From: a bacterium (Candidatus Blackallbacteria) CG13_big_fil_rev_8_21_14_2_50_49_14
GTDB lineage: Bacteria > Cyanobacteriota > Sericytochromatia > UBA7694
Length of the DNA stretch: 57,060 nt
NCBI GenBank assembly: GCA_002783405.1
Contig: PFGG01000020.1
Location: 1 to 57,060 of the forward strand
Reading direction: 5' to 3'
Shown: in pieces, positions 3,285-57,060 of the stretch
How the letters are laid out: every line of letters begins with the position of its first letter
Numbering within the stretch: position 1 is the first letter of the stretch
Notes under the pieces: model-generated
What the model was told of the DNA's origin: nothing
Databases searched by the model: none
What the model saw: the letters and a program-made list of their open reading frames with translations, nothing else
Program-made: the position numbers and the translations under genes

Positions 3285-5222
3285 GTGAATCTAGTCGACT
3301 TCTCTAATTCTTTCAGAAAAGAGCAAAGAGACCCTGTGAAACCTGTTTTGCGCGTGGGCCTGGCCCAAATCAGCGAACAAAGATTTCAACATTTTTATTT
3401 TCCCTATTCTGTAGGGCTGCTACAAGCCTATGCCCAACGCTGGGCCCCGGATCCCGCACGCTATGAATTTACGCTTCCGCTTTACAGCCGTTTATCTGTT
3501 CAAAAAGGTGTACAGTACTTGCTTGAATCAGATATTGCGGGTTTTAGCTGCTATATCTGGAATATCAACCGCTCGCTGGCAATCGCACAATCTTTAAAAC
3601 TGCAAAACCCCCATGTGCTGATTATGATGGGCGGTCCACAAATTCCCAATTTAAGTGAAGCCTTTCTGCGCAAATATCCCTTTGTCGATGTCTGTGTACA
3701 TGGCGAAGGCGAACAAAGCTTTTTAAAGCTGCTCGAAAGCTGGCCTGAAAATCATTGGTCGGATATTCCCGGCATCAGCTGGCTCGATGCAGCAGGCCAG
3801 TACCATCAAAATCCCCAAGGGCCACGTATTCGTGATTTAGATATAATTCCCTCACCCTATCTCAGTGGGATTTTTGACCGCTTAATCGAGGCCTGGCCAG
3901 GCAGGGAGTGGATCGGCACCTGGGAAACCAACCGAGGTTGTCCTTTTTCCTGCTCTTTTTGCGACTGGGGTTCTCTGACCCAAAGCAAAGTTTACCGCTT
4001 TGATATGGAACGCCTAAAAGCTGAAATCGAATGGTTTGGTTCGCGCAAAGTTGCGGATATTTTTACAGCCGATGCCAATTTTGGCATCTTTTCACGCGAT
4101 GTGGAACTGGCAAATCATTTTGCAGCAACCAGGAAACAGTATGGTTTTCCCAGGGTTTTACAAACCCAAACGGCTAAAAATGTAAAGGAACGCAATTTGG
4201 AAATTCAAAAAATTCTGGTAGATGCAGGGCTCAATGCCGTAACTTCCTTGGCTGTTCAAAGCACCAATCCCGAAGTACTGAAAGCCATACGACGCGAAAA
4301 TATTTCCTTGCAAACCTACCGCGATATTCAAAAGTTTTGTTTGGATCACGGTATTTACAGCTATACAGATATTATTCTGGGGCTGCCAGGAGAGAGCTAT
4401 GATTCTTTCGCCCAGACCATCGATGATGTCTTGACGCACGGGCAATATAATAAATTGATCTTTTATAATGCCTCACTTCTGCCCAATGCTGAAATGGCGC
4501 AGGCTGAATACCGCGAGCGTTACGGCATTGAATCGATCCAGATACATTTTCCAGGCCATGGCCAGCCCGAAGACGGGATTTATGAATATCTGGAAATTGT
4601 CGTGGCCACCCACAGCCTTTCGCGCTCAGACTGGATTCGCATGCATGTTCTGGCCTGGATGACTAATTTTTTGGTCTATACCCATAAAATGTTGCAATTG
4701 CCGTTGCTGGCCCTGCATGTCAAGTCTGAATTGCCTTGGCGAGAGATGATTGAGGCTTTTACAAATCCCCAAGCACTCAGCGAATTTCCACTTTTGGGGG
4801 CAATTTTAAATAGCATGGTTTTTACTGCGCAAAAACTACAGGCCGGATATGTTCACCAAAACGAAAATCCACTTTTGTATTCGTGGGATGATGGAGCACA
4901 TCTGGCTCCAGATATCGCACTGCAAGTACGTCTGCACCAAGAGGGAAAAACTGAATTGTTTTTTAGAGAAAGCAGGGATCTGCTCTGGAACCTGTTAGAA
5001 ACTAAAAAAATCGACTACCCGCGTGACTTACTGGATGAATCGATTGGTTTAAGCCGTTCGCTTTTTTGTGAACTCTTTTATCGCCAGTTTTTTAACGGTA
5101 CGATTCCAGCAGAGATCCCCAGATTTGAGACCTTGCCCTTAAGTTATAACCTGAGAGAATTTTTTCACAGCCGACTGGATGGCGGCAATTTAGCGCTTGA
5201 AAAAATTGACAAAACCATCTAA
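3285..5222 (+). CDS. B12-binding-domain radical SAM protein
   Basis: A 645-residue protein with an N-terminal cobalamin-binding-like Rossmann region (about 22-190, with GGPQIPNL and HGEGEQSF, the usual markers of the B12-binding radical SAM group) and a radical SAM core whose NRGCPFSCSFCDWG holds the CxxxCxxC [4Fe-4S] motif. A long C-terminal helical region follows. Members of this large class perform methylations or other radical rearrangements; the substrate cannot be read from sequence. The start is a GTG at 3285; the ribosome site is poor (AGAAG), and a GTG at 3336 is an alternative that would still leave the B12 region intact. Its stop overlaps the convergent response-regulator gene by four bases. 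Confidence 0.85.
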   Translation: MNLVDFSNSFRKEQRDPVKPVLRVGLAQISEQRFQHFYFPYSVGLLQAYAQRWAPDPARYEFTLPLYSRLSVQKGVQYLLESDIAGFSCYIWNINRSLAIAQSLKLQNPHVLIMMGGPQIPNLSEAFLRKYPFVDVCVHGEGEQSFLKLLESWPENHWSDIPGISWLDAAGQYHQNPQGPRIRDLDIIPSPYLSGIFDRLIEAWPGREWIGTWETNRGCPFSCSFCDWGSLTQSKVYRFDMERLKAEIEWFGSRKVADIFTADANFGIFSRDVELANHFAATRKQYGFPRVLQTQTAKNVKERNLEIQKILVDAGLNAVTSLAVQSTNPEVLKAIRRENISLQTYRDIQKFCLDHGIYSYTDIILGLPGESYDSFAQTIDDVLTHGQYNKLIFYNASLLPNAEMAQAEYRERYGIESIQIHFPGHGQPEDGIYEYLEIVVATHSLSRSDWIRMHVLAWMTNFLVYTHKMLQLPLLALHVKSELPWREMIEAFTNPQALSEFPLLGAILNSMVFTAQKLQAGYVHQNENPLLYSWDDGAHLAPDIALQVRLHQEGKTELFFRESRDLLWNLLETKKIDYPRDLLDESIGLSRSLFCELFYRQFFNGTIPAEIPRFETLPLSYNLREFFHSRLDGGNLALEKIDKTI

Positions 5223-6142
5223 ACGCTGATTTCCGCGAAAAAAGTCCCGCTGCGGGCCAAGAACAACTCACGCGCAATCGTGGAATAGAGGGCATTGGCC
5301 GCATGGGTCGCGAGCATGGGCAGCGTTTGGTACATCAAGGGATCTTCCAAAGCATTCTCGACATAGAGCCAACCATAGCCCAAATCACGGTTCAAGACCA
5401 AGGGCACGAGAAAACCTGAACCAAAGATGCCTGCATCCTGCAAAGCCAAAGCGCTGGGGTCGGCCGCTATCTGGGCCACAATCCCTGCAGCTGCCGCTTC
5501 TGTTTCCTCTGAATTGGGATTCGTGCCCGTAAACAAAACATAGCGGCGTGAATCACCGGATTCCTGAAAGGTTTCCAAATTCAAAACCGCCAAGTCTGCA
5601 GGTGCGATCATCACCGCAGTTTCTAAGATTCTTTGCAGACTTTCCTCAAGGCTTTCAATCGTATGCAAAGCGGTTACCGATTCATGCAGAAAGGTCAGCA
5701 CCTCACGGTGATGCTGCAATTCAACCAGTTCATCGTAGGCCTTGAGTGCGGTACGAACCGCCGTATACAAGCGATTGGTGGTCAGCTCTGCTTTGGCCAG
5801 ATAGCCATCAATATCATATTCTTCAATCACTTTTTTCTCGGGAGCCGCTCCAGGCTGCCCGGTGCGCAGCAAAATTCTGACAAATTCATTGCCCAGCTCC
5901 TGACGGATCGTCTGACAGGCATCCAAACCCGCACTGGGGGTTTCCATGACCACATCCAATAAAATCACAGCCGTATCAGGGCGGTTGCGAACAAACTCAA
6001 CAGCCTCTGAACCCGTCGAGGCAAAAGCCAGCTCAACCCCACGATCGCGGTATTTCAAACTGCGCAAACTCAGGCGGCTCAATGAATGCATATCCGGTTC
6101 GTCATCTACAACCAGAATGAGGTAGTTATCAGGCAGTGGCAT
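5219..6142 (-). CDS. response regulator with DUF3369-like domain
   Basis: A 307-residue protein. Residues 1-140 are a receiver domain: acidic pair in VVDDEPD (Asp13-Asp14), phospho-acceptor Asp63 in ILLDVVMETPS, and a conserved Thr/Lys side (LLRTGQPG, YLAKAEL). The rest resembles DUF3369, a GAF-like sensory region found after receivers (LYTAVRTALKAYDELVELQ and onward). No DNA-binding domain or output enzyme is present, so it probably works through protein contacts or as a phosphate sink. It is the last gene of a three-gene minus-strand operon, 36 bases after the histidine kinase and with an AAGGAG site, so the kinase is its likely partner. Confidence 0.85.
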   Translation of the reverse strand: MPLPDNYLILVVDDEPDMHSLSRLSLRSLKYRDRGVELAFASTGSEAVEFVRNRPDTAVILLDVVMETPSAGLDACQTIRQELGNEFVRILLRTGQPGAAPEKKVIEEYDIDGYLAKAELTTNRLYTAVRTALKAYDELVELQHHREVLTFLHESVTALHTIESLEESLQRILETAVMIAPADLAVLNLETFQESGDSRRYVLFTGTNPNSEETEAAAAGIVAQIAADPSALALQDAGIFGSGFLVPLVLNRDLGYGWLYVENALEDPLMYQTLPMLATHAANALYSTIARELFLARSGTFFAEISV

Positions 6143-6178: not shown

Positions 6179-7411
6179 CTAACCGGCTAAATGTTCCTGC
6201 GGGGTAATGGTTTGGGGAAACTCCACGGTAACAGTGGTTCCCAAACCCAGTTCTGAATCAATTTGAATCGTTCCCTCGAGAGCTGAGGTGACCAGATTGT
6301 GCACAATCGACATTCCCAGTCCCGATCCCCCAATCCCGCGCCCGGTGGTAAAAAACACATCAAAGACACGGGAAAGATCTTCTTTGGGAATGCCTTTACC
6401 AAAATCCTGAACCACCAGGCGAAAAAAGGGAGTCCCCTCACGTTCAAGGCGTGAAAGCTTGACCACAATACGCCCGCCTACCCCTGCGGGATAGGCATAG
6501 CGCTCAATATTGCTGAAAAAATTCATCAGAATCTGCGAAAGATAACCGGGATAGCCCACCCAACTGGCATATTCAATTCCGGCTTCAAATTCTGTTTCAA
6601 GGCTAAGATGCGCTTGCCGCGCTTTGATTTTATACAGGTCAATGACTTCCTGTACCAATTGCGTCAGGTTGACCGATTCCAGAGTATCCATAATCTGACT
6701 AACGGAAATGCTTTTGAAGCTTTGGATCAGTTTATTGGCTCGGGCAATATTGCTCTGCATCAAATGGGCGGCTTCCTGAATATCCTCAAGCATCAACTTC
6801 AGCTCAGGATCGGTGGCTTTGGCCAGTAATTCAGGGGTGAGATTTTCAGTAATCATGCTGGCTGAAACATTCACAATCCCCAAAGGGGTGTTGATTTCAT
6901 GGGCCACACCCGCCACCATTTCAGCCAGAGAGCGGTGGCGTTCAATTTCCATTTGGGATTGCAGACGCTGCTTTTCGAGCATTTCTAAATAAATCTTTTC
7001 ATTCGAACTTTTGATCTTGCTGCTGATCCCCGCCAAAACATCTGAAAGCATTTCTGGAGAAGCCGAAAGCAGGCGCATAAAGTTAGAGCGGTCTAAAACA
7101 AAGAATTCACTCTCTTCGGCTGTTTTAACGGTCGCAGAACGGGTGCCGCCATCCACCAGCGCCAACTCTCCAAAAAACTGACCCACGCGCAGGGTAGAAA
7201 GTTCAATCGGTTTGCCATCTGGATCTTTGCCATAGACCCTGACAGAGCCCGAGACAATCACATACAAACTGCCCGCAGGGTCTCCCTGCTCAAAAAGCGC
7301 CTGATCTGCAGGATAAGAAGTCAGGCGACCCATGGGCACCAATTCTTCCAATTGGGTTTCACTGAGATGGTCAAAAAACGGAATGCTTTTCAGCAGCTCT
7401 TGAATCGACAT
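6179..7411 (-). CDS. cyclic-nucleotide-binding sensor histidine kinase
   Basis: A 410-residue soluble kinase. Residues 10-130 form a cNMP-binding fold with the phosphate-binding cassette FGELALVDGGTRSATV, including the Glu and Arg that hold the cyclic phosphate, so nucleotide binding is plausible. A short coiled coil leads to a HisKA-like helix with MVAGVAHEINTPLGIV (His171), then a HATPase with an N box and GRGIGGSGLGMSIV. No membrane segment. The ATG lies one base after the stop of the upstream oxidoreductase-like gene, with an AGGAG site inside that gene, so the two are translationally linked. It likely phosphorylates the downstream DUF3369 regulator. Confidence 0.9.
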   Translation of the reverse strand: MSIQELLKSIPFFDHLSETQLEELVPMGRLTSYPADQALFEQGDPAGSLYVIVSGSVRVYGKDPDGKPIELSTLRVGQFFGELALVDGGTRSATVKTAEESEFFVLDRSNFMRLLSASPEMLSDVLAGISSKIKSSNEKIYLEMLEKQRLQSQMEIERHRSLAEMVAGVAHEINTPLGIVNVSASMITENLTPELLAKATDPELKLMLEDIQEAAHLMQSNIARANKLIQSFKSISVSQIMDTLESVNLTQLVQEVIDLYKIKARQAHLSLETEFEAGIEYASWVGYPGYLSQILMNFFSNIERYAYPAGVGGRIVVKLSRLEREGTPFFRLVVQDFGKGIPKEDLSRVFDVFFTTGRGIGGSGLGMSIVHNLVTSALEGTIQIDSELGLGTTVTVEFPQTITPQEHLAG

Positions 7412-7412
7412 A

Positions 7413-10127
7413 TTAGGCTTGCTCCTGTAATGCTTCCAATTTAATCTGTGCAGACTTCAGATAGGGAAGTCCTGAACGGGCACATTTCGCACTGCGGTAA
7501 GTCAGAAGATTGAGATAAGAGTCCTGCTCAATTTCATTGACTGAGTGGTGGTAGCTGAGATAAACCATGCGCCCTTTTAAGCGGGAAGTCACTGCAATCG
7601 GCAAAATAGCTGAGCGTTCTGTTTCCAGATTGGTCACGCGCACCTTTTGCCCGGTTTGCAGGGACTGGGCCTGGGCCAAGGCTTCAGAAACATAGAGAAT
7701 CTGTTCTTTGGGCATATCCATTGAAGCCAGGGTTTTGCCTGAATGAAAAGAACCAATCGCAAAGCGAATCCAACCGGCATGATCGCTCAAGGTTGAACAA
7801 CCTGAATTGAGCACAATGCCTTCAGGTAATTCCAGCTCGTTGGCCTGGGGAAGCAAAAACTTGAAGGAAACAGGTCCGCGGTAGAGATCGTGAAACAAAG
7901 CTGGTTTTGAGGGTTCCTGGCGGTGTCGTGAAGTGCCCACTCCGCCATAGATCAAAGAGCCCTGTGAAAGCAGCTCATCCCAACTGACAGGCAACCCATC
8001 CGCATGTTCCGGGCGGCAATACAGCGGGCCACGGGTTTGAGAGTTCCCCTTCAAATAGGCTTGAATCCGATCCCAAAGCACAAAGCGGCAGACTTCCCCC
8101 TCTGCGCGTTCAAGTGCGCCGCCCTGTTCAGGGGCTTCAAACTGTTTTTGTAAATAGCCACTCTTCACATGTTCAGCCAAATCGGCATGTTCCAGGTTCA
8201 AATCAGGATCTGAACGCAAATGCTGAGAAACCTCAGCCATGGTGTCGTAGAGCAGAGTACAGGCCGAACGGGTTTCAGGGGGAGCGGCCCGGCGGGGAAG
8301 TGCAAGTGTCAGACGCCATTCCCCATTCTGGTAAAGACGCCCCTGTGAAACCTCGGGAGCAGTGGGCAAGCAGAGCGCTGCATGGCGCAGGAAAAAAGGC
8401 CCTGGCATGGGGTCAATTACCACCAGAAGGGTTTCGGGGGCTTTTAATTTTTCAATCCAACGGGTACGGTCCATCATCTGGCCTTCAAGGCCCTGGCCAA
8501 TACAAATAATCAATTCACGCTTGCCGGGTTCCACCAAGGTCGGGTATTCAAGCGCCGGTCGCGAGGGCTCTGCTAAAAGCGCAGCATAGGCAGATTCTGG
8601 CAGCCCCATGCGCAAGGCGGCTTCCTGGCAGCCGGTTTGATCGAGCGGGAGATTGCCAAAGAACCGGTCTTGGGCCAAACCCTGAACCTGGGTTTGGTCA
8701 TTTTTTTCGTAGGGCAGACGCAAAGGCCCCCCACGCAATTCGCCCTCTGCACTCACACCCAGTTTGCCCAAGAGAGCCAGCAGATTATTCCAAAGCCCAT
8801 GGGCCACCACGCCTTGGGTTTGAGACAGACCTGCGCCCGGAATATGGACGGGAATTTTACGCGTTTCCACCAGTGAAGCGGCAATTGAACGCATGCCCGC
8901 CACCAGACGGTCGAGATAAGCGGGGTCAGGGGCAATCGTTTCGGCCACCCGCTCAATTTCATAGGCTTCAGATTGCGCAAGCTTGAGAAATTCTGTGAGA
9001 CTTTCTTTGTCAGTCCACTGCGAAATAAAGCGTTGATCCAAAGCCCCTGGATAATTTTTCAGAATTTCGTGCGCCACGCCCAAAGCCAGCAGGCTGTCTC
9101 CGCCTGTGCGGATCAGCAGAATCCGCTCAGGTGAAAGCCGGGCCGCTAAGATCTTGGCACTCTCGGTGACACAGGTCTCGATCAACCAGGCATCCAATTC
9201 TTCTTTTAAAACCAGACGGTTAAACACAGGCAAATGGGAAACAAAGCCATTCCAACCTGAAAGCAGGAACAGACGATCGGGGCCTTCCAGTGCCTGATCC
9301 AGAGTCACCAGCGGGGATTCTTCACCGGCCTGAAGTTCAAGACAGCGGGCAGCAGCCCGCAAGCCAAATTCGTTGGTGCCCGTCAGATTGCGCACCCCCA
9401 GCAATCGGAAAACCTCATGCATGGCAAATTGATCAAAATAATCCAAATCCCCACCAGCATAGACCAAGGTACGCCCATAGGGCGGGCGATAGGCCAAGAG
9501 CAAATCAGCCAAACGGTTGATTGCATCCTGGTAAAAAAGCGGCACCCTTCGACCCGTCACATCCAAAACACTGGGAGAAAGCTGAAGGGGAAAAAGGGTG
9601 GGTTGCTCACCCATCGAAATCCGCAGTTTGGCAAAACCCTCTTCGGGCATTTTGTTTTCAATGATGCGCTCAAGCTTGCGGGTCATGCTGCGATAAAACA
9701 GAAAGGTCTGAATGCCCTGGCCATCGCGCTGACTCCAGCCCTGACTGGATTCGCGCAACATCGCGGTAAAGCGCAGATCCTCACGTTCAAGTTCTGCCAC
9801 AAATACAGATCCTGGCAAAGCCAAGGGGCCAGGTGACTGAACGTCTAAACTGCCATTGGGTTTTAAAAAAGCCTTGCGCTCGAGCAATTGACCAAAGAAA
9901 TACGTGCGCAGGAGATAGGCCCCCTGGGGAAGATCCTCAATGGCTGAAACACTTTGCGTTTCATTGACCTGAATGACGCCTGAAATACCCCCGCTGTAAA
10001 AGGGCCAATTGAACGAGGCCCCATAGTCTTGAAAACCAGCGGGATGAAGATAACCGGGAATACCGTGCAATTCCTCCAGCAATCCGGCATGTTTAATGGT
10101 GGGGAGGTGATTGTAGGAAGTTTTCAT
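7413..10127 (-). CDS. molybdopterin oxidoreductase-like protein, Fe-S site absent (FdhA/YdeP-like)
   Basis: A 904-residue protein whose layout follows the formate dehydrogenase/molybdopterin family: TLVYAGGDLDYFDQFAMHEV matches the region where paralogues read GxxxNEAAYLxQ, RTGGDSLLALGVAHEIL matches the dinucleotide loop, GGPLRLPYEKNDQTQVQG matches the PLRGQNNVQG region, and the last 110 residues match the C-terminal molydopterin dinucleotide-binding barrel (QTGQKVRVTNLETERSA, then NLLTYRSAKC). The N-terminal CxxC...C Fe-S motif is missing; there is no cysteine before about residue 275. No twin-arginine signal is seen, so it is cytoplasmic. First gene of an operon with a cNMP-binding kinase and a regulator, which is unusual for a metabolic enzyme and suggests a sensory role. 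Family moderately sure, activity unknown. Confidence 0.7.
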   Translation of the reverse strand: MKTSYNHLPTIKHAGLLEELHGIPGYLHPAGFQDYGASFNWPFYSGGISGVIQVNETQSVSAIEDLPQGAYLLRTYFFGQLLERKAFLKPNGSLDVQSPGPLALPGSVFVAELEREDLRFTAMLRESSQGWSQRDGQGIQTFLFYRSMTRKLERIIENKMPEEGFAKLRISMGEQPTLFPLQLSPSVLDVTGRRVPLFYQDAINRLADLLLAYRPPYGRTLVYAGGDLDYFDQFAMHEVFRLLGVRNLTGTNEFGLRAAARCLELQAGEESPLVTLDQALEGPDRLFLLSGWNGFVSHLPVFNRLVLKEELDAWLIETCVTESAKILAARLSPERILLIRTGGDSLLALGVAHEILKNYPGALDQRFISQWTDKESLTEFLKLAQSEAYEIERVAETIAPDPAYLDRLVAGMRSIAASLVETRKIPVHIPGAGLSQTQGVVAHGLWNNLLALLGKLGVSAEGELRGGPLRLPYEKNDQTQVQGLAQDRFFGNLPLDQTGCQEAALRMGLPESAYAALLAEPSRPALEYPTLVEPGKRELIICIGQGLEGQMMDRTRWIEKLKAPETLLVVIDPMPGPFFLRHAALCLPTAPEVSQGRLYQNGEWRLTLALPRRAAPPETRSACTLLYDTMAEVSQHLRSDPDLNLEHADLAEHVKSGYLQKQFEAPEQGGALERAEGEVCRFVLWDRIQAYLKGNSQTRGPLYCRPEHADGLPVSWDELLSQGSLIYGGVGTSRHRQEPSKPALFHDLYRGPVSFKFLLPQANELELPEGIVLNSGCSTLSDHAGWIRFAIGSFHSGKTLASMDMPKEQILYVSEALAQAQSLQTGQKVRVTNLETERSAILPIAVTSRLKGRMVYLSYHHSVNEIEQDSYLNLLTYRSAKCARSGLPYLKSAQIKLEALQEQA

Positions 10128-10220: not shown

Positions 10221-10620
10221 TCAGGGTTTTAAAGCCCCGACAAGATTGAGGCGGCCATGCCCATAAAAGGTATCAAACCCTGTTTCGCCCAGATCATGGG
10301 CTCCGGCTTCAATCCGTGCTTTGATTTGCTCACGGCTCAGCTCAGGCCAGCGGCTGCGCAGAAGTGCCGCCGTACCGGCCACGGCAGGTGTGGCCATCGA
10401 GGTGCCGCTGACCAGTCCATTCTCCGGGCACGGTTTCAAGACTGGCGGGCAAAGCCGGGTAGCGGGTGGAGAGGCGGTTGAGGGGCTGGGCTGCATTGCG
10501 CTGAAGTGTAACAGCGGTTCGGGCAGGCCCCAAACCGCCCGCAAGGGGAAGGCCCTGGCAGGAAAGCAAGAGCGACAGGCTGAGAAAGCAGGCGAGGGAA
10601 CGCAGCATCAAGAACCTCAA
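10221..10620 (-). pseudogene. remnant of an exported subtilisin-like (S8) serine protease
   Basis: Two overlapping frames make one broken gene. The 5' frame (from 10620) encodes a lipoprotein signal, MRFLMLRSLACFLSLSLLLS then Cys, plus about 40 residues; the 3' frame, open to 10221, encodes the end of a peptidase S8 domain: ENGLVSGTSMATPAVAG with the catalytic-Ser box, then ALLRSRWPELSREQIKARI and GHGRLNLVGAL. They join at about 10430 only if one base is inserted or lost. The regions that would hold the catalytic Asp and His (some 200 residues) are gone. So the locus has both a large internal deletion and a frameshift and cannot make an active protease. Confidence 0.75.
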
Positions 10621-44013: not shown

Positions 44014-45468
44014 ATGGCTCTTCGCATCAATAGTAATATTTCTTCGCTGAATGCCCAACGGAATTTGGGCAGCAGCAATGTCCAACTCTCAAAGACTTTA
44101 GAGCGTCTTTCTTCGGGCCTGCGTATCAATCGAGCCGCAGATGATGCCGCTGGGTTAGCAGTTTCTGAAAAACTGCGCACCCAAATCAAAGGCTTCAGCC
44201 AAGCCACCAGCAATGCCCAAGATGCAATCAATTTAATCGCAACCGCAGAATCAGGGCTGGATCAGAGTTCCCAGATTCTTCAGCGCATGCGCGAACTCTC
44301 CATTCAAGCAGGGAATGACACCCTGGTGAACGCCGATCGCGCGAAAATCCAGGAAGAGATCAATCAACTCCGAGTTGAACTGACCCGCATTGCCGAAACG
44401 ACAGAATTCAATACCCGCAAACTGCTCGATGGCAGTATTGCCCAGGCCACAGGCAAAGCCAATCCAACCGGAGAAATCAAACAAAATCTGAGAGTGGGAA
44501 ATACCCTGGCCACCGTGCCTCAGATGCAGGATTTCTTTTCAACAATTACGCTTCCCACTGCTGGAGCTGGCCCAGGTATTCCTGCCACCTTTGATCTTGA
44601 ATTAGAGGACAATAATCGCGTTGCAGTGGTCACTCAGTATAATGTGACCGGTCTTCCCGGTGGACAATGGTATGCTCCCGCGACACTTGATATGGCATTT
44701 GAATTTAAATTGGTCAGTTACCAAGCAAATAGCAGCGCCCCCGTCAGCGTTGCCATCGAAGTCTATAATTCTGTAAACGGATTCCTGTATAGTGTGGATA
44801 CCAGTGATCCCGCTTCATTTTTAGAGCCCAATGCCGGTCTTGGTACCGCGCGTGGCGGTTGGGAAGCGGGCATTAGCGGCGGAAGAATTCCGGCAGGCCA
44901 ATCCGTTCTTTTTCTATCTTTACGTCCCCCCGTAGACGGCCTTTACACGACGGGAGAAGCCGTTGGAATCGTTCAGATCAACAACCCTACCACCCTGGAT
45001 ATCGGCAAATCAGCCGTGATTCAGATAACGCCGCCTCGTACAGTGGTCACCACCGACAGTTCTCTGACCTTTCATGTCGGAGCCAACGAAGGCCAATTTC
45101 TTAAAATGGGGGTTCAGGATATGCGCGGAAAAGCGCTGCGTATGGAAACCCTCAATATTCTGGGCAGCACAGACCAGGACAGCCGTCTCAAAGCCCAAAA
45201 TGCCATGGGTGCCATTGATTCTGCGCTGGAGTATGTCAATACCAACCGCGCCCGCCTGGGGGCCTTTCAGAACCGGCTGGAATATACCATTCAGAATCTG
45301 CAGATTTCTCAAGAGAACCTGACCGCTTCTGAATCGCGCATCCGAGATGCAGATATTGCGATGGAGACAGCCCAACTCACCCGCGCCCAAATTCTGGTGC
45401 AGGCTGGTACCGCGGTGCTAAGCCAGGCCAATATCGCACCACAATCGGCCCTGAGTCTTTTAGGTTAA
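44014..45468 (+). CDS. fliC: flagellin (484 residues)
   Basis: Conserved N-terminal D0/D1 (RINSNISSLNAQRNLGSSNV, LSSGLRINRAADDAAGLAVS, ATSNAQDAINLIATAESG) and C-terminal D1/D0 (RLEYTIQNLQISQENLTASE, SRIRDADIAMETAQLTRAQI, QAGTAVLSQANIAPQSALSL) surround a roughly 200-residue variable middle with a Pro/Gly-rich beta region. It is secreted by the flagellar export apparatus and polymerises into the filament. A GGAGGAA site precedes the ATG. A second, longer flagellin gene follows 230 bases later. Shared N- and C-termini with that copy suggest duplication and divergence of the middle. Both are candidate targets of the FliB-like methylase and of surface glycosylation. Confidence 0.97.
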   Translation: MALRINSNISSLNAQRNLGSSNVQLSKTLERLSSGLRINRAADDAAGLAVSEKLRTQIKGFSQATSNAQDAINLIATAESGLDQSSQILQRMRELSIQAGNDTLVNADRAKIQEEINQLRVELTRIAETTEFNTRKLLDGSIAQATGKANPTGEIKQNLRVGNTLATVPQMQDFFSTITLPTAGAGPGIPATFDLELEDNNRVAVVTQYNVTGLPGGQWYAPATLDMAFEFKLVSYQANSSAPVSVAIEVYNSVNGFLYSVDTSDPASFLEPNAGLGTARGGWEAGISGGRIPAGQSVLFLSLRPPVDGLYTTGEAVGIVQINNPTTLDIGKSAVIQITPPRTVVTTDSSLTFHVGANEGQFLKMGVQDMRGKALRMETLNILGSTDQDSRLKAQNAMGAIDSALEYVNTNRARLGAFQNRLEYTIQNLQISQENLTASESRIRDADIAMETAQLTRAQILVQAGTAVLSQANIAPQSALSLLG

Positions 45469-45554
45469 GTATTTTCTCCGTTTGCATCATTTGAGTGGAT
45501 TGTATTCTGATCTCAATAAATTAAGCGTCAGGCATAGAAACATCGTTTATTTTT

Positions 45555-45583
45555 ATGACACATACAGAACATTCGTTTATAAT
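45555..45583 (+). promoter_or_regulatory. sigma70-type promoter of the second flagellin gene
   Basis: ATGACA (45555-45560) and TATAAT (45578-45583), 17-base spacer, 117 bases before the ATG, leaving a leader of about 110 bases. Confidence 0.6.
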
Positions 45584-45602
45584 TTATTAATATATACAAA
45601 AC

Positions 45603-45620
45603 TGTCTCACGGATGAGACA
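45603..45620 (+). other. stem-loop in the second flagellin leader
   Basis: TGTCTCA (45603-45609) and TGAGACA (45614-45620) form a 7-bp perfect stem with a CGGA loop, flanked by AAAC/GTTT-type bases that could extend it. It lies in the predicted 5' untranslated region, 20-37 bases after the likely transcription start, so it could be an mRNA-stability element or an operator. Confidence 0.5.
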
Positions 45621-45699
45621 ACAGTTTCAAAAACTATAAAACCGTTGAATCGCGCAAAGATACTTTCAAACAGCGATTTAATCAACAGAGGAGACACGG

Positions 45700-48210
45700 A
45701 TGGCTCTGTATATCAATAGCAATCTCACGTCTCTCAACGCTCAGCGCAATCTGGGTATCAATAACTCCAAACTTTCTAAAACCCTGGAACGCCTGTCCTC
45801 GGGCCTGCGCATAAACCGTGCAGCCGATGATGCTGCAGGGTTGGCTATTTCTGAAAAGTTACGCACCCAAATCAAAGGCTTGAATCAAGCCACCAGCAAT
45901 GCCCAAGATGGGGTCCATCTGGTACAAACCGCAGAAGGGGGGCTAGAACAAATCTCAGGCATTCTGCAACGCATGCGTGAACTTTCAATTCAAGCAGCCA
46001 ATGATACGCTGGTGAATGAAGACCGGGGCAAAATTCAAGCAGAAATCAACCAGTTGCGCACTGAAATTACACGGATCTCCCAAACCACTGAATTTAATAC
46101 GCGAAAACTCTTAAATGGCAGCATTCAATCTTCACAAACAGATTTTCAAAATGCCCGTGCAGTCCTCACCAATAATATTCGCGTTGGCGATGCTCAAAAC
46201 CTTCCTCTGGATATCCGCAATTTTGTCGCTGGCATTCAAAGTCTCGCTCTCAATGCCACAGTGGATCAAGCGATTTCTTTGAAAATTGTCAACCTCTCAT
46301 CCAGCCTGCCAGAGGTCGTAGGGCTTGAAGTGCGTTCTTCAGTCTACGGCCTTCTAACGCAAATACAAGACTTACCGACGTTAGGCAGTACCAGTTTTGG
46401 AATCTCGCTTTTGGGCCCCAGCAATACCAGCAGTCTATTGACCCTCGATATCAACAAGGGGGGATATATCAGTGGAATCACCGATCGCTCCACCCCCCTC
46501 AGCAGCTTGATATTAACAGAAAGGCTCAGCCCTGTAAACGCTGGAAATATGAGTCTGACAGTAGGTTCTACCGCATACAGTATCGCCGTCGATCCCAATA
46601 CAGACACCATCAATAGCCTCTTGGCCAAAATCAATGCCTTGAGCAATGCCAGCCATACTTTCTCTGCCACTTATGATGATGTAAACAGTCGTTTCCAAAT
46701 CAGCGTCTCGCGTACCAGCAACCCGCCAAATATCTATACAGCCACCACCAATTACTCCAGCACCCCACCAGCAGCTTACAGTGGTGGAACACCAGCTCCG
46801 GCTCCTTATCCTGGTTTTACACTGCCAGCCGTTGGAACGCTCTATGCCTCAGTGGTAGATTTTCCCGATCTCAACGCTCTGAACCAAAATACTGATTTTA
46901 CCCTCAACTCAACTGGCGGCAATCTTACCGCTCTGTTTGGCGGAGTGACCACCGTCAACCGCCAGATTACAGCCTATAGCACCAATACTTATACAGGCAC
47001 CGCCACGGCCACGGGCGTGAACTCAAATTATGATCTAACCTCCACACTTGACTTTTCATCCATCTCAAGCAATTCACGCACACAATCCAATGCCTCCTTT
47101 GCCGCAGGCAATACTTGGGGCAGTTATGGTCTGGCCGCAGCCGACACATTACAAATCAGCGTACAAACTTCAAGTGGTGGATCTTATACTGCCAGTATCG
47201 TTGTGAATCCAGGCGATACGGTCGGTGCCAGCTTGACCGCCTTGCAAACCGATCTCAATACAAACGCCAATGGAGGGGGAGACAACTACGCAGTGTTTCT
47301 CGGCGTCGGCGGAAATCTTGTCGTTTCCCATGATATTAGCCAAAACTACGCAGCAGGCGTTGCATCCCTGACCAAAACGCTCAATAACTATATCCCCCCC
47401 AATGCGCCCATTCCCTTTGGCGGCACCACAGGCCCCAATAATTTTGGGCCTGGCAGCCCAGGTATCAACGCCTTTTATCCAAACCCTGGCGGTGTAGCTC
47501 CTGAATTTGATCTTTCGCTCAGTTTTGGCGGCAGTACAGGCTTGCAGCAGGCCCTGTACTTAAACACCCTCGCTGACAATGCTGATACCCGCAGCAATAC
47601 TTACGCAGGTGCAGTCACCTCAAACGGCGGCGATTCCTATACACTCACAACCACACAAACAGAAATTCATAATCCGGGCAACAATTCAACCCAAAGTGCA
47701 ATTGCCGTTGGGGGCCCCTTTAATTTAACAGAGGCGGATATCGGCAAAGAAGTCATGGTTCAGATCTTCGCTGAACGCAAAGAAGTGCGTGAAGACCGCA
47801 GCCTGACCCTGCAGATAGGCGCAAATGAAGGTCAGTTTCTCAAACTGGGCATTGATGAAATGAGTTCACATGCCCTGCGGATTGAAACCCTGAATATCTG
47901 GGGAGCCAATGATCAGGACTCTCATCTCAAAGCCCAAAATGCAATTGGCGTGCTCACAGAAGCTCTGGATCAGGTCAATTTGCAGCGCAGTCGTCTGGGC
48001 GCACTCCAAAACCGCCTGGAATATACGATTCAAAATCTACAGATTTCAAGAGAAAATCTCACGGCCTCTGAATCCCGGATTCGGGATGCGGATATCGCAA
48101 TGGAAACAGCCCAACTCACCCGCTCTCAAATTCTCGTTCAGGCTGGCACAGCGGTCTTAAGTCAGGCCAATAGTGCGCCGCAATCGGCCCTCAATCTTTT
48201 AAGGGGCTAA
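45700..48210 (+). CDS. fliC: very long flagellin (836 residues)
   Basis: N- and C-terminal D0/D1 regions are near-identical in pattern to the 484-residue flagellin (YINSNLTSLNAQRNLGINNS at the start; RLEYTIQNLQISRENLTASE at the end), but the middle is about 550 residues. It includes at least one Flagellin_IN-like unit (SLTVGSTAYSIAVDPNTDT, NSLLAKINALSNASHTFSAT) and Ser/Thr/Gly/Asn-rich stretches (SAATTNYSST-type, NANGGGDNYAVFLGVGGN). Such enlarged D2/D3 domains make thick or decorated filaments. The start has AGAGGAGA upstream. Its middle is rich in O-glycosylation-type Ser/Thr. Size is far above the 300-500 usual for the family. Confidence 0.95.
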   Translation: MALYINSNLTSLNAQRNLGINNSKLSKTLERLSSGLRINRAADDAAGLAISEKLRTQIKGLNQATSNAQDGVHLVQTAEGGLEQISGILQRMRELSIQAANDTLVNEDRGKIQAEINQLRTEITRISQTTEFNTRKLLNGSIQSSQTDFQNARAVLTNNIRVGDAQNLPLDIRNFVAGIQSLALNATVDQAISLKIVNLSSSLPEVVGLEVRSSVYGLLTQIQDLPTLGSTSFGISLLGPSNTSSLLTLDINKGGYISGITDRSTPLSSLILTERLSPVNAGNMSLTVGSTAYSIAVDPNTDTINSLLAKINALSNASHTFSATYDDVNSRFQISVSRTSNPPNIYTATTNYSSTPPAAYSGGTPAPAPYPGFTLPAVGTLYASVVDFPDLNALNQNTDFTLNSTGGNLTALFGGVTTVNRQITAYSTNTYTGTATATGVNSNYDLTSTLDFSSISSNSRTQSNASFAAGNTWGSYGLAAADTLQISVQTSSGGSYTASIVVNPGDTVGASLTALQTDLNTNANGGGDNYAVFLGVGGNLVVSHDISQNYAAGVASLTKTLNNYIPPNAPIPFGGTTGPNNFGPGSPGINAFYPNPGGVAPEFDLSLSFGGSTGLQQALYLNTLADNADTRSNTYAGAVTSNGGDSYTLTTTQTEIHNPGNNSTQSAIAVGGPFNLTEADIGKEVMVQIFAERKEVREDRSLTLQIGANEGQFLKLGIDEMSSHALRIETLNIWGANDQDSHLKAQNAIGVLTEALDQVNLQRSRLGALQNRLEYTIQNLQISRENLTASESRIRDADIAMETAQLTRSQILVQAGTAVLSQANSAPQSALNLLRG

Positions 48211-56008: not shown

Positions 56009-57060
56009 TTATTCAGCCTGAACCACAGGTTGAGCGGTTTCTGAAACAGGCCCAGAAAGCACAGCATGGTTCTTATAGACAATCCCACCATTGCGCAACT
56101 CACCCATCATTTGGATAAAGTCGTTGCTTTCACCCGGATATTTGCCGTTGATCGTCACCATATATTTTTTCTTCTGACTGGCGCTGAAAACGCTCATGAC
56201 AAAAAGTGTGTCCTCGATCATCAGCACCTGGCCAATGATTTCAACTGCATTTTCAACGGGCAGGGTACGACGCAGATTGGCAATTTTAATCGTCGGAGCT
56301 TCATCAATCTGACGGTATTGCGCTGCTTTTTGAGAATAAGTGGGCCAAAAAGCAAACATAATTTCACGTTCCAGAAATTTCTGAATCGGGTATTTGTTCT
56401 GAAGATCACGCCGACGTTCGTCTTCGAATTTATATTTAAAGCCTTCGATTTCGATCACGCCTCGTTTTTTGCGGGGATCGACTTCTAAAATGGTGCCTTT
56501 GGCCATACCGATTGCACGTTGAAAGTCTTGTGTCAATGGGTGTTCTGGCAAAAGAAAAAGTGATTCTTCAATCGTAATCGGTGGGCTTTGGCGACGGGGA
56601 GTGCGATCAAAACGGGGTTGACGATCGCGGTTTTGATAGCGGTTATCACGGTTGTCGCGGTTATAGCCGCCTTCGCGCGGGCGATAATTGTTGTCGCGGT
56701 TATAGCCGCCCTCACGCGGTGGGTAATTGTTGTCGCGGTTATAGCCGCCTTCGCGCGGGCGGTAATTATTATCGCGGTTATAGCCGCCTTCGCGTGGGCG
56801 ATAATTGTTGTCGCGGTTATAGCCGCCTTCACGTGGGGGGTAATTGTTGTCGCGGTTATAGCCGCCTTCGCGTGGGCGGTAATTGTTATCGCGATTATAG
56901 CCGCCTTCGCGCGGTGGGTAATTATTATCGCGATTATAGCCGCCTTCGCGTGGGCGGTAATTGTTGTCGCGGTTATAGCCGCCTTCACGGGGGCGGTAAT
57001 TGTTGTCGCGGTTATAGCCGCCTTCACGGGGGGGATAATTGTTGTCGCGGTTATAGCCGC
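56009..57060 (-). CDS. repeat-rich Gly/Tyr/Asn/Arg protein, 5' end beyond the window
   Basis: A partial gene: the first whole codon is at 57058-57056 and 349 residues are visible. The N-terminal part is ten-plus copies of a 13-residue unit, GGYNRDNNY(R or P)PRE, then an Arg/Gln linker (RYQNRDRQPRFDRTPRRQ). The C-terminal 180 residues are a folded-looking domain with GMAKGTILEVDPRKKRGVIE, LEREIMFAFWPTYSQKAAQY and IGQVLMIEDTLFVMSVFSAS; the KGTILEVDPRKKRGVIEIEG turn resembles an OB- or cold-shock-like strand pair, but I cannot name the family. RGG/GYN-type repeats bind RNA and phase-separate in other proteins. The ATG inside the folded part is not the true start, since the frame is open upstream. 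Confidence 0.7.
   Translation of the reverse strand, partial: GYNRDNNYPPREGGYNRDNNYRPREGGYNRDNNYRPREGGYNRDNNYPPREGGYNRDNNYRPREGGYNRDNNYPPREGGYNRDNNYRPREGGYNRDNNYRPREGGYNRDNNYPPREGGYNRDNNYRPREGGYNRDNRDNRYQNRDRQPRFDRTPRRQSPPITIEESLFLLPEHPLTQDFQRAIGMAKGTILEVDPRKKRGVIEIEGFKYKFEDERRRDLQNKYPIQKFLEREIMFAFWPTYSQKAAQYRQIDEAPTIKIANLRRTLPVENAVEIIGQVLMIEDTLFVMSVFSASQKKKYMVTINGKYPGESNDFIQMMGELRNGGIVYKNHAVLSGPVSETAQPVVQAE
56661..57060 (-). repeat. 39-bp tandem repeats in the coding region, ten full copies plus part
   Basis: Ten complete 39-bp units (56661-57050) and the start of another (57051-57060) encode GGYNRDNNYxPRE. Position x is Arg or Pro: reading 5' to 3' on the minus strand the order is Pro, Arg, Arg, Pro, Arg, Pro, Arg, Arg, Pro, Arg. 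Third-codon positions vary (GCG, CGC, ACG, CGT-type changes) while residues are kept, so the array is not a fresh expansion. Confidence 0.95.

Follow-up and report, generated by a model that had tools for sequence, protein, structure and literature searches.

A molybdoenzyme-fold protein without its cofactor-ligand cysteines, encoded with a cyclic-nucleotide-binding histidine kinase in Sericytochromatia, is a candidate pseudoenzyme sensor

Our analysis showed that a 904-residue MopB-like protein of a Candidatus Blackallbacteria genome (Sericytochromatia), which lacks the cysteines that ligate iron-sulphur and molybdenum in its relatives, is encoded in a recurrent gene trio with a histidine kinase and a response-regulator protein. 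We consider it moderately probable that the trio is one inherited signalling module, and that the MopB-like protein is a pseudoenzyme sensor derived from a nitrate-reductase-like molybdoenzyme. The trio lies on the minus strand of the window, by which we mean the whole stretch of DNA analysed (57,060 nucleotides), in the order MopB-like gene, kinase gene, REC gene. The first open reading frame, encoding a protein of NapA-type fold that is the proposed enzyme-derived sensor subunit, is real and lies at 7413..10127 (-) as originally predicted; its coupling to the kinase gene was likewise confirmed, with a single base between its stop codon (7413-7415) and the kinase ATG (7409-7411). From Pfam and alignment, the kinase (6179..7411, minus strand) is a cytoplasmic protein of 410 residues with a cNMP-binding domain (residues 31-116; 86.7 bits), in which the FGEL..RSA motif is intact, a HisKA domain (28.6 bits) and a HATPase_c domain (residues 290-401; 75.2 bits), all above cut-off. 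The third gene (5219..6142, minus strand) encodes a protein of 307 residues with a REC domain (41 bits) and a C-terminal domain that weakly resembles DUF3369. The hallmark residues of two-component systems are present in both proteins, H171 in the kinase and D63, T94 and K117 in the REC domain. The "DUF3369 regulator" of the original prediction thus stands as far as REC is concerned, and the DUF3369 label does not, its score (PF11849) being 16.2 bits, below the gathering score of 27.2; the homologue from a Thiotrichaceae genome scored 23.4 bits. No DNA-binding output domain was found in the 307-residue protein by domain search.

Three other features of the window may be recorded here. Positions 10221-10620, 5' of the trio, hold what appears by eye to be the remains of a decayed gene: it begins like a lipoprotein and ends in a subtilase-like C-terminus (GTSMATPAVAG), the two lying in different frames. 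Two adjacent flagellin-like open reading frames with near-identical N-termini lie at 44014-48210, and an open reading frame made of a repeated KAAITATTITA-like unit (56533-57027) is probably a tandem repeat and not a gene.

Several lines of evidence indicate that the 904-residue protein has a genuine, full-length MopB/DMSO-reductase fold, and that NapA is its nearest relative among solved structures. Structure prediction, proposed at the outset as a check, yielded an AlphaFold2 model of moderate quality (pLDDT 71.9, pTM 0.68), in which residues 22-63, the former Fe-S loop, fall below a pLDDT of 50. A Foldseek search of the PDB with this model returned 152 matches at E<=0.001, headed by NapA (3.8e-20) and continuing with other nitrate reductases, formate dehydrogenases and S/N-oxide reductases, and nearly the whole chain was covered. 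At the sequence level, phmmer matched residues 192-644 to a Desulfovibrio NapA (E 1.7e-4), and a profile of six sequences strengthened the NapA match to 1e-8. Pfam scores for the whole protein fell short for both PF01568 (25.4 bits, cut-off 26.8) and PF00384 (14.1 bits, cut-off 24); in the genome search PF01568 reached 29.9 bits, above its cut-off, and it places a molybdopterin-dinucleotide-binding-like domain at residues 805-891 (7455..7715, minus strand; E 1.6e-5). The protein had been described as formate-dehydrogenase-like, a label that is right about the MopB fold and too narrow about kinship, the nearest enzymes being NapA-type nitrate reductases as much as formate dehydrogenases.

The absence of Fe-S cysteines from the first 275 residues, on which the original prediction was built, was borne out: no cysteine precedes residue 262, which itself is not at an Fe-S position. 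In the alignment, the CxxCGVGD/T motif of relatives is degenerate (WPFYSGGISG, residues 41-50; 9978..10007, minus strand), W41 and Y44 standing for cysteines, and the fourth Fe-S position (GC.K in relatives) is taken by F165 (9633..9635, minus strand). The window clade as a whole has WPFYSGGISG and GFAK where subfamily B, a Sericytochromatia paralogue, and a set of fused relatives from other phyla keep both CxxCGxG(D/T) and the later GC.K. The third Fe-S position is Asp or Thr in every relative and never Cys, and the fused forms keep three of the four Fe-S cysteines together with the Mo-ligand Cys. Further along, D227 (9447..9449, minus strand) replaces the Gln of the YxSGQ/GSGQ motif common to NapA, subfamily B and the fused forms, and G255 (9363..9365, minus strand) occupies the place of the Mo-ligand Cys (GNAEHC in the fused forms, GNPRLC in NapA). 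We take the Cys of GNPRLC to be the Mo ligand of NapA. A Cys is listed for NapA in a survey of the MopB superfamily (PMC10100899), in agreement with this assignment. All three fused forms have Cys at this position, and both the window clade and subfamily B have Gly, subfamily B having kept its Fe-S cysteines and lost the Mo cysteine. The six proteins outside the window clade (subfamily B and fused forms) share 210 invariant columns, of which 29 are altered in every one of the three window-clade proteins; the Gln of GSGQ, the His that precedes the Mo ligand and each of the three retained Fe-S cysteines are among these 29. Comparison of the cofactor-coordinating residues therefore shows that both Fe-S and Mo ligand residues are gone from the window clade, and all three of its known members adjoin a kinase gene.

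By analogy with arsenite oxidase, which has no amino-acid ligand to Mo (PMC7759655), a missing Mo ligand need not mean that Mo is absent, and missing Fe-S cysteines may be compatible with catalysis, as in enzymes of the S/N-oxide reductase type. The window protein might thus still be an active molybdoenzyme that coordinates Mo in an unusual way, has no Fe-S cluster and signals by its turnover in the manner of a regulatory hydrogenase. Such an enzyme would accord with the retained fold and the purifying selection described below, with the Lys kept after the fourth Cys position (GFAKL), with the fused relatives, whose Mo Cys and electron input are preserved, and with the MopB survey, which marks a family that has no N-terminal Fe-S cluster (PMC10100899). 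In the window clade, however, the reductase fusion is absent, as are the Gln of GSGQ and the His preceding the Mo ligand, which leaves no evident path for electrons, and we regard this alternative as unlikely.

Between Fe-S positions 3 and 4, modelling and Foldseek delimit an inserted all-beta domain, possibly of split-barrel or PilZ-like fold (about residues 51-157; 9657..9977, minus strand). Modelled alone, this insert of about 107 residues is predicted to form a beta barrel (pLDDT 81.7), for which Foldseek found split-barrel flavoproteins (best 3.5e-3) and PilZ proteins, all as weak matches. Pfam found nothing convincing in the insert and no PilZ match, and no PilZ domain was found anywhere in the window's genome; given also the weakness of the Foldseek matches, a PilZ identity was not upheld.

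In three Sericytochromatia genomes of one GTDB family, those of the window, G001 and G002, the three genes lie side by side, and the refuting case of a trio that occurs once only is thereby excluded. Identities to the window's proteins are 71% (G001) and about 45% (G002) for the MopB-like protein, 82% and 61% for the kinase, and 92% and 70% for the REC protein. Each of the five family genomes has the REC gene, although the copies of G003 and G004 sit at contig ends, where neighbouring genes cannot be read. Subfamily B occurs in the window's genome (G000), G002 and G004 and has no kinase beside it (e.g. G000:C11, G002:C163). In G004, a lone cNMP-domain protein of 158 residues, 33% identical to the cNMP region of the kinase, is encoded directly upstream of the subfamily-B gene (G004:C1131; L020:4810-5286), and the subfamily-B gene of the window's genome (G000:C11) overlaps an open reading frame with an FGE-sulfatase domain (L016:11311-13206). 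MopB-like genes of this family were found in 4 of 386 sampled genomes of the phylum, all from a single family, which rules out a widespread cyanobacterial distribution. A mobile or viral origin was likewise set aside, no relatives being found among plasmids or viral contigs.

Relatives of the MopB-like protein also occur in two genomes of the Acidobacteriota phylum (G059 and G428) and in one Thiotrichaceae MAG (UBA7357; locus L030), where they are fused to FAD-, NAD- and 2Fe-2S-binding domains, the domain calls for the G428 fusion resting on its 70% identity to that of G059. Such proteins are carried by 2 of 396 Acidobacteriota-phylum genomes and, on the Thiotrichaceae side, by 1 of 53 genomes in the order and the same one of 369 in the class. 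All three fused loci have homologous REC and kinase genes beside them, in differing gene orders. The REC proteins of the other phyla are 47-49% identical to that of the window, and the kinases 42% in Thiotrichaceae, including the cNMP domain, and 36-38% in Acidobacteriota, over the kinase part alone. Linkage to kinase and regulator is therefore not peculiar to the ligand-less form, since it is also found with fused relatives that keep their redox ligands. The foreign MAGs are unlikely to be contaminated by Sericytochromatia, given the ribosomal-protein-like open reading frames seen by eye on contig L044 and the location of the G428 copy on a contig of 1.22 Mb. With the trio uninterrupted in three genomes and its components recurring across three phyla, chance adjacency can be excluded. 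The genes could still be merely co-transcribed, an unrelated two-component system lying in one operon with a MopB-like gene whose product serves in metabolism or maturation, as the kinase-free paralogues of subfamily B would allow; this is highly improbable in view of the clustering of homologous REC and kinase genes with the MopB-like gene in three phyla, with varying gene orders.

The surroundings of the fused loci provide hints of their function. NarK (TIGR00886) homologues lie near two of the three: in Thiotrichaceae, a NarK-family MFS transporter is fused to a cNMP-binding histidine kinase homologous to that of the window (L030:3131-5953), its NarK part scoring 199.5 bits against a cut-off of 311.7, and in G428 (L043) a NarK-family gene lies downstream, at 306.8 bits just below the same cut-off, and after it comes an H-NOX gene (PF07700; L043:18471-19115). 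In G059, a gene for a truncated globin (PF01152; L045:3365-3727) lies between two kinase genes. The H-NOX and globin neighbours suggest an input of NO or oxygen to the Acidobacteriota versions of the system.

In the phylogenetic tree, the window clade was monophyletic (100/100) and the fused forms grouped together (94/100), with subfamily B unresolved. The simplest reading of these sequences is that the Mo cysteine would have been lost first and the Fe-S ligands afterwards, and this order is given as the simplest reading only, since the root of the tree is unreliable. Comparison of the window with G001 shows purifying selection on each gene of the trio, with pN/pS values of 0.29 for the MopB-like gene, 0.19 for the kinase gene and 0.09 for the REC gene, dS being close to saturation and the ratios rough. 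The MopB-like gene is thus the least constrained of the trio, as might be expected if its product were a ligand-free scaffold or dock that positions the kinase and the REC protein, with cyclic nucleotide as the sole signal. The kinase has an intact cNMP domain of its own, and Qrc and alternative complex III contain MopB proteins that are devoid of cofactor and have a structural role (PMC6303296). A fold of 904 residues, in which 122 of the 210 ancestral invariant positions are retained by all window-clade members across the cleft-forming domains, nevertheless exceeds the needs of docking, and a scaffold seems to us distinctly unlikely.

On the pseudoenzyme-sensor reading that we favour, the ancestor would have been an NAD(P)H-driven nitrate-reductase-like molybdoenzyme, already tied to a REC protein and to a histidine kinase reading its state. 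In the window clade the fold would then have been kept while the Fe-S ligands and the Mo-ligand Cys disappeared, together with the reductase domain (if that was ever present). The old active-site cleft may now bind a small ligand or a pterin or nucleotide, and the ligand-bound protein would alter the activity of the adjacent cytosolic kinase through contact with it. The kinase would also read a cyclic nucleotide and would phosphorylate the REC protein, whose output could be exerted through protein contact. Other observations count against the sensor reading: the subfamily-B paralogue has lost the Mo Cys though no kinase adjoins it, the Acidobacteriota kinases have no cNMP domain, and REC paralogues exist without MopB genes. 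A link to nitrate is suggested by one line of evidence, the NarK neighbours of the fused relatives. NarK (TIGR00886) had no match in the window's genome or its four family relatives, and for this reason nitrate sensing by the window organism was rejected as a firm claim and the current signal may differ from the ancestral substrate. More tentatively, it is possible that these systems represent a new signalling class, in which a cytosolic cNMP-binding kinase has a homologue of NapA-type molybdoenzymes as its sensor. Such a class would be preserved at three stages of decay, namely the NarK-linked, redox-competent reductase fusions of Acidobacteriota and Thiotrichaceae, forms without the Mo ligand, and the fully ligand-less partner of the kinase in the window, whose catalytic cleft would read nitrate, nitrite or another oxyanion.

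Compared with NapA/NasA nitrate reductases and formate dehydrogenases (type I MopB), the window protein has a similar overall fold, with similarity over residues 192-644, and GNPRLC of NapA is matched in the alignment by the Mo-Cys region of the fused relatives; unlike these enzymes, it is without Fe-S cysteines and Mo-ligand Cys and has an inserted beta domain and a kinase operon. Nitrate- and nitrite-sensing systems of the NarQ/NarX type (PMC8199190) likewise pair a kinase with a regulator, and share with the fused relatives a connection to nitrate through the latter's NarK neighbours. Here, however, there is no NarX-like membrane sensor, the candidate sensor is a separate molybdoenzyme-like protein and the nitrate role is putative. 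If upheld, this nitrate-linked signalling system would combine transporter, reductase, kinase and cyclic-nucleotide input. The closest precedent in organisation is the regulatory [NiFe] hydrogenase HoxBC with its kinase HoxJ and regulator HoxA (PMC6978683, PMC5665086). As there, an enzyme homologue is encoded with a cytosolic histidine kinase and a regulator across genomes, and is presumed to feed the kinase, here from genomic linkage. HoxBC differs in belonging to another enzyme superfamily and in keeping its active site, and, unlike HoxJ and HoxA, the window kinase carries a cNMP domain and the window REC protein has no detected DNA-binding domain. The original prediction of an enzyme fold turned sensor as a new arrangement is thus sustained in its ligand loss and kinase linkage, and a kinase fed by an enzyme is not in itself new (PMC6978683). 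Our searches of the open-licence literature found neither a MopB protein described as the partner of a kinase nor any pseudoenzyme molybdopterin sensor, and the term "histidine kinase" is absent from the main text of the MopB survey (PMC10100899). QrcB, ActB and NuoG/Nqo3 are MopB subunits of respiratory complexes that have no cofactor (PMC6303296, PMC10100899); the window protein shares their fold and, judging from its ligands, probably their loss of Mo/W-bisPGD, which has been shown for them, and differs from these kinase-free respiratory subunits in adjoining a kinase. Molybdoenzyme folds are thus known to become structural respiratory subunits after cofactor loss; here one appears to have been recruited into signal transduction, and the intermediates kept in other phyla offer a testable path from redox enzyme to sensor. 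Enzyme-fed kinases and cofactor-less MopB subunits are both known, and what appears to be new here is the linkage of a MopB-fold protein to a kinase.
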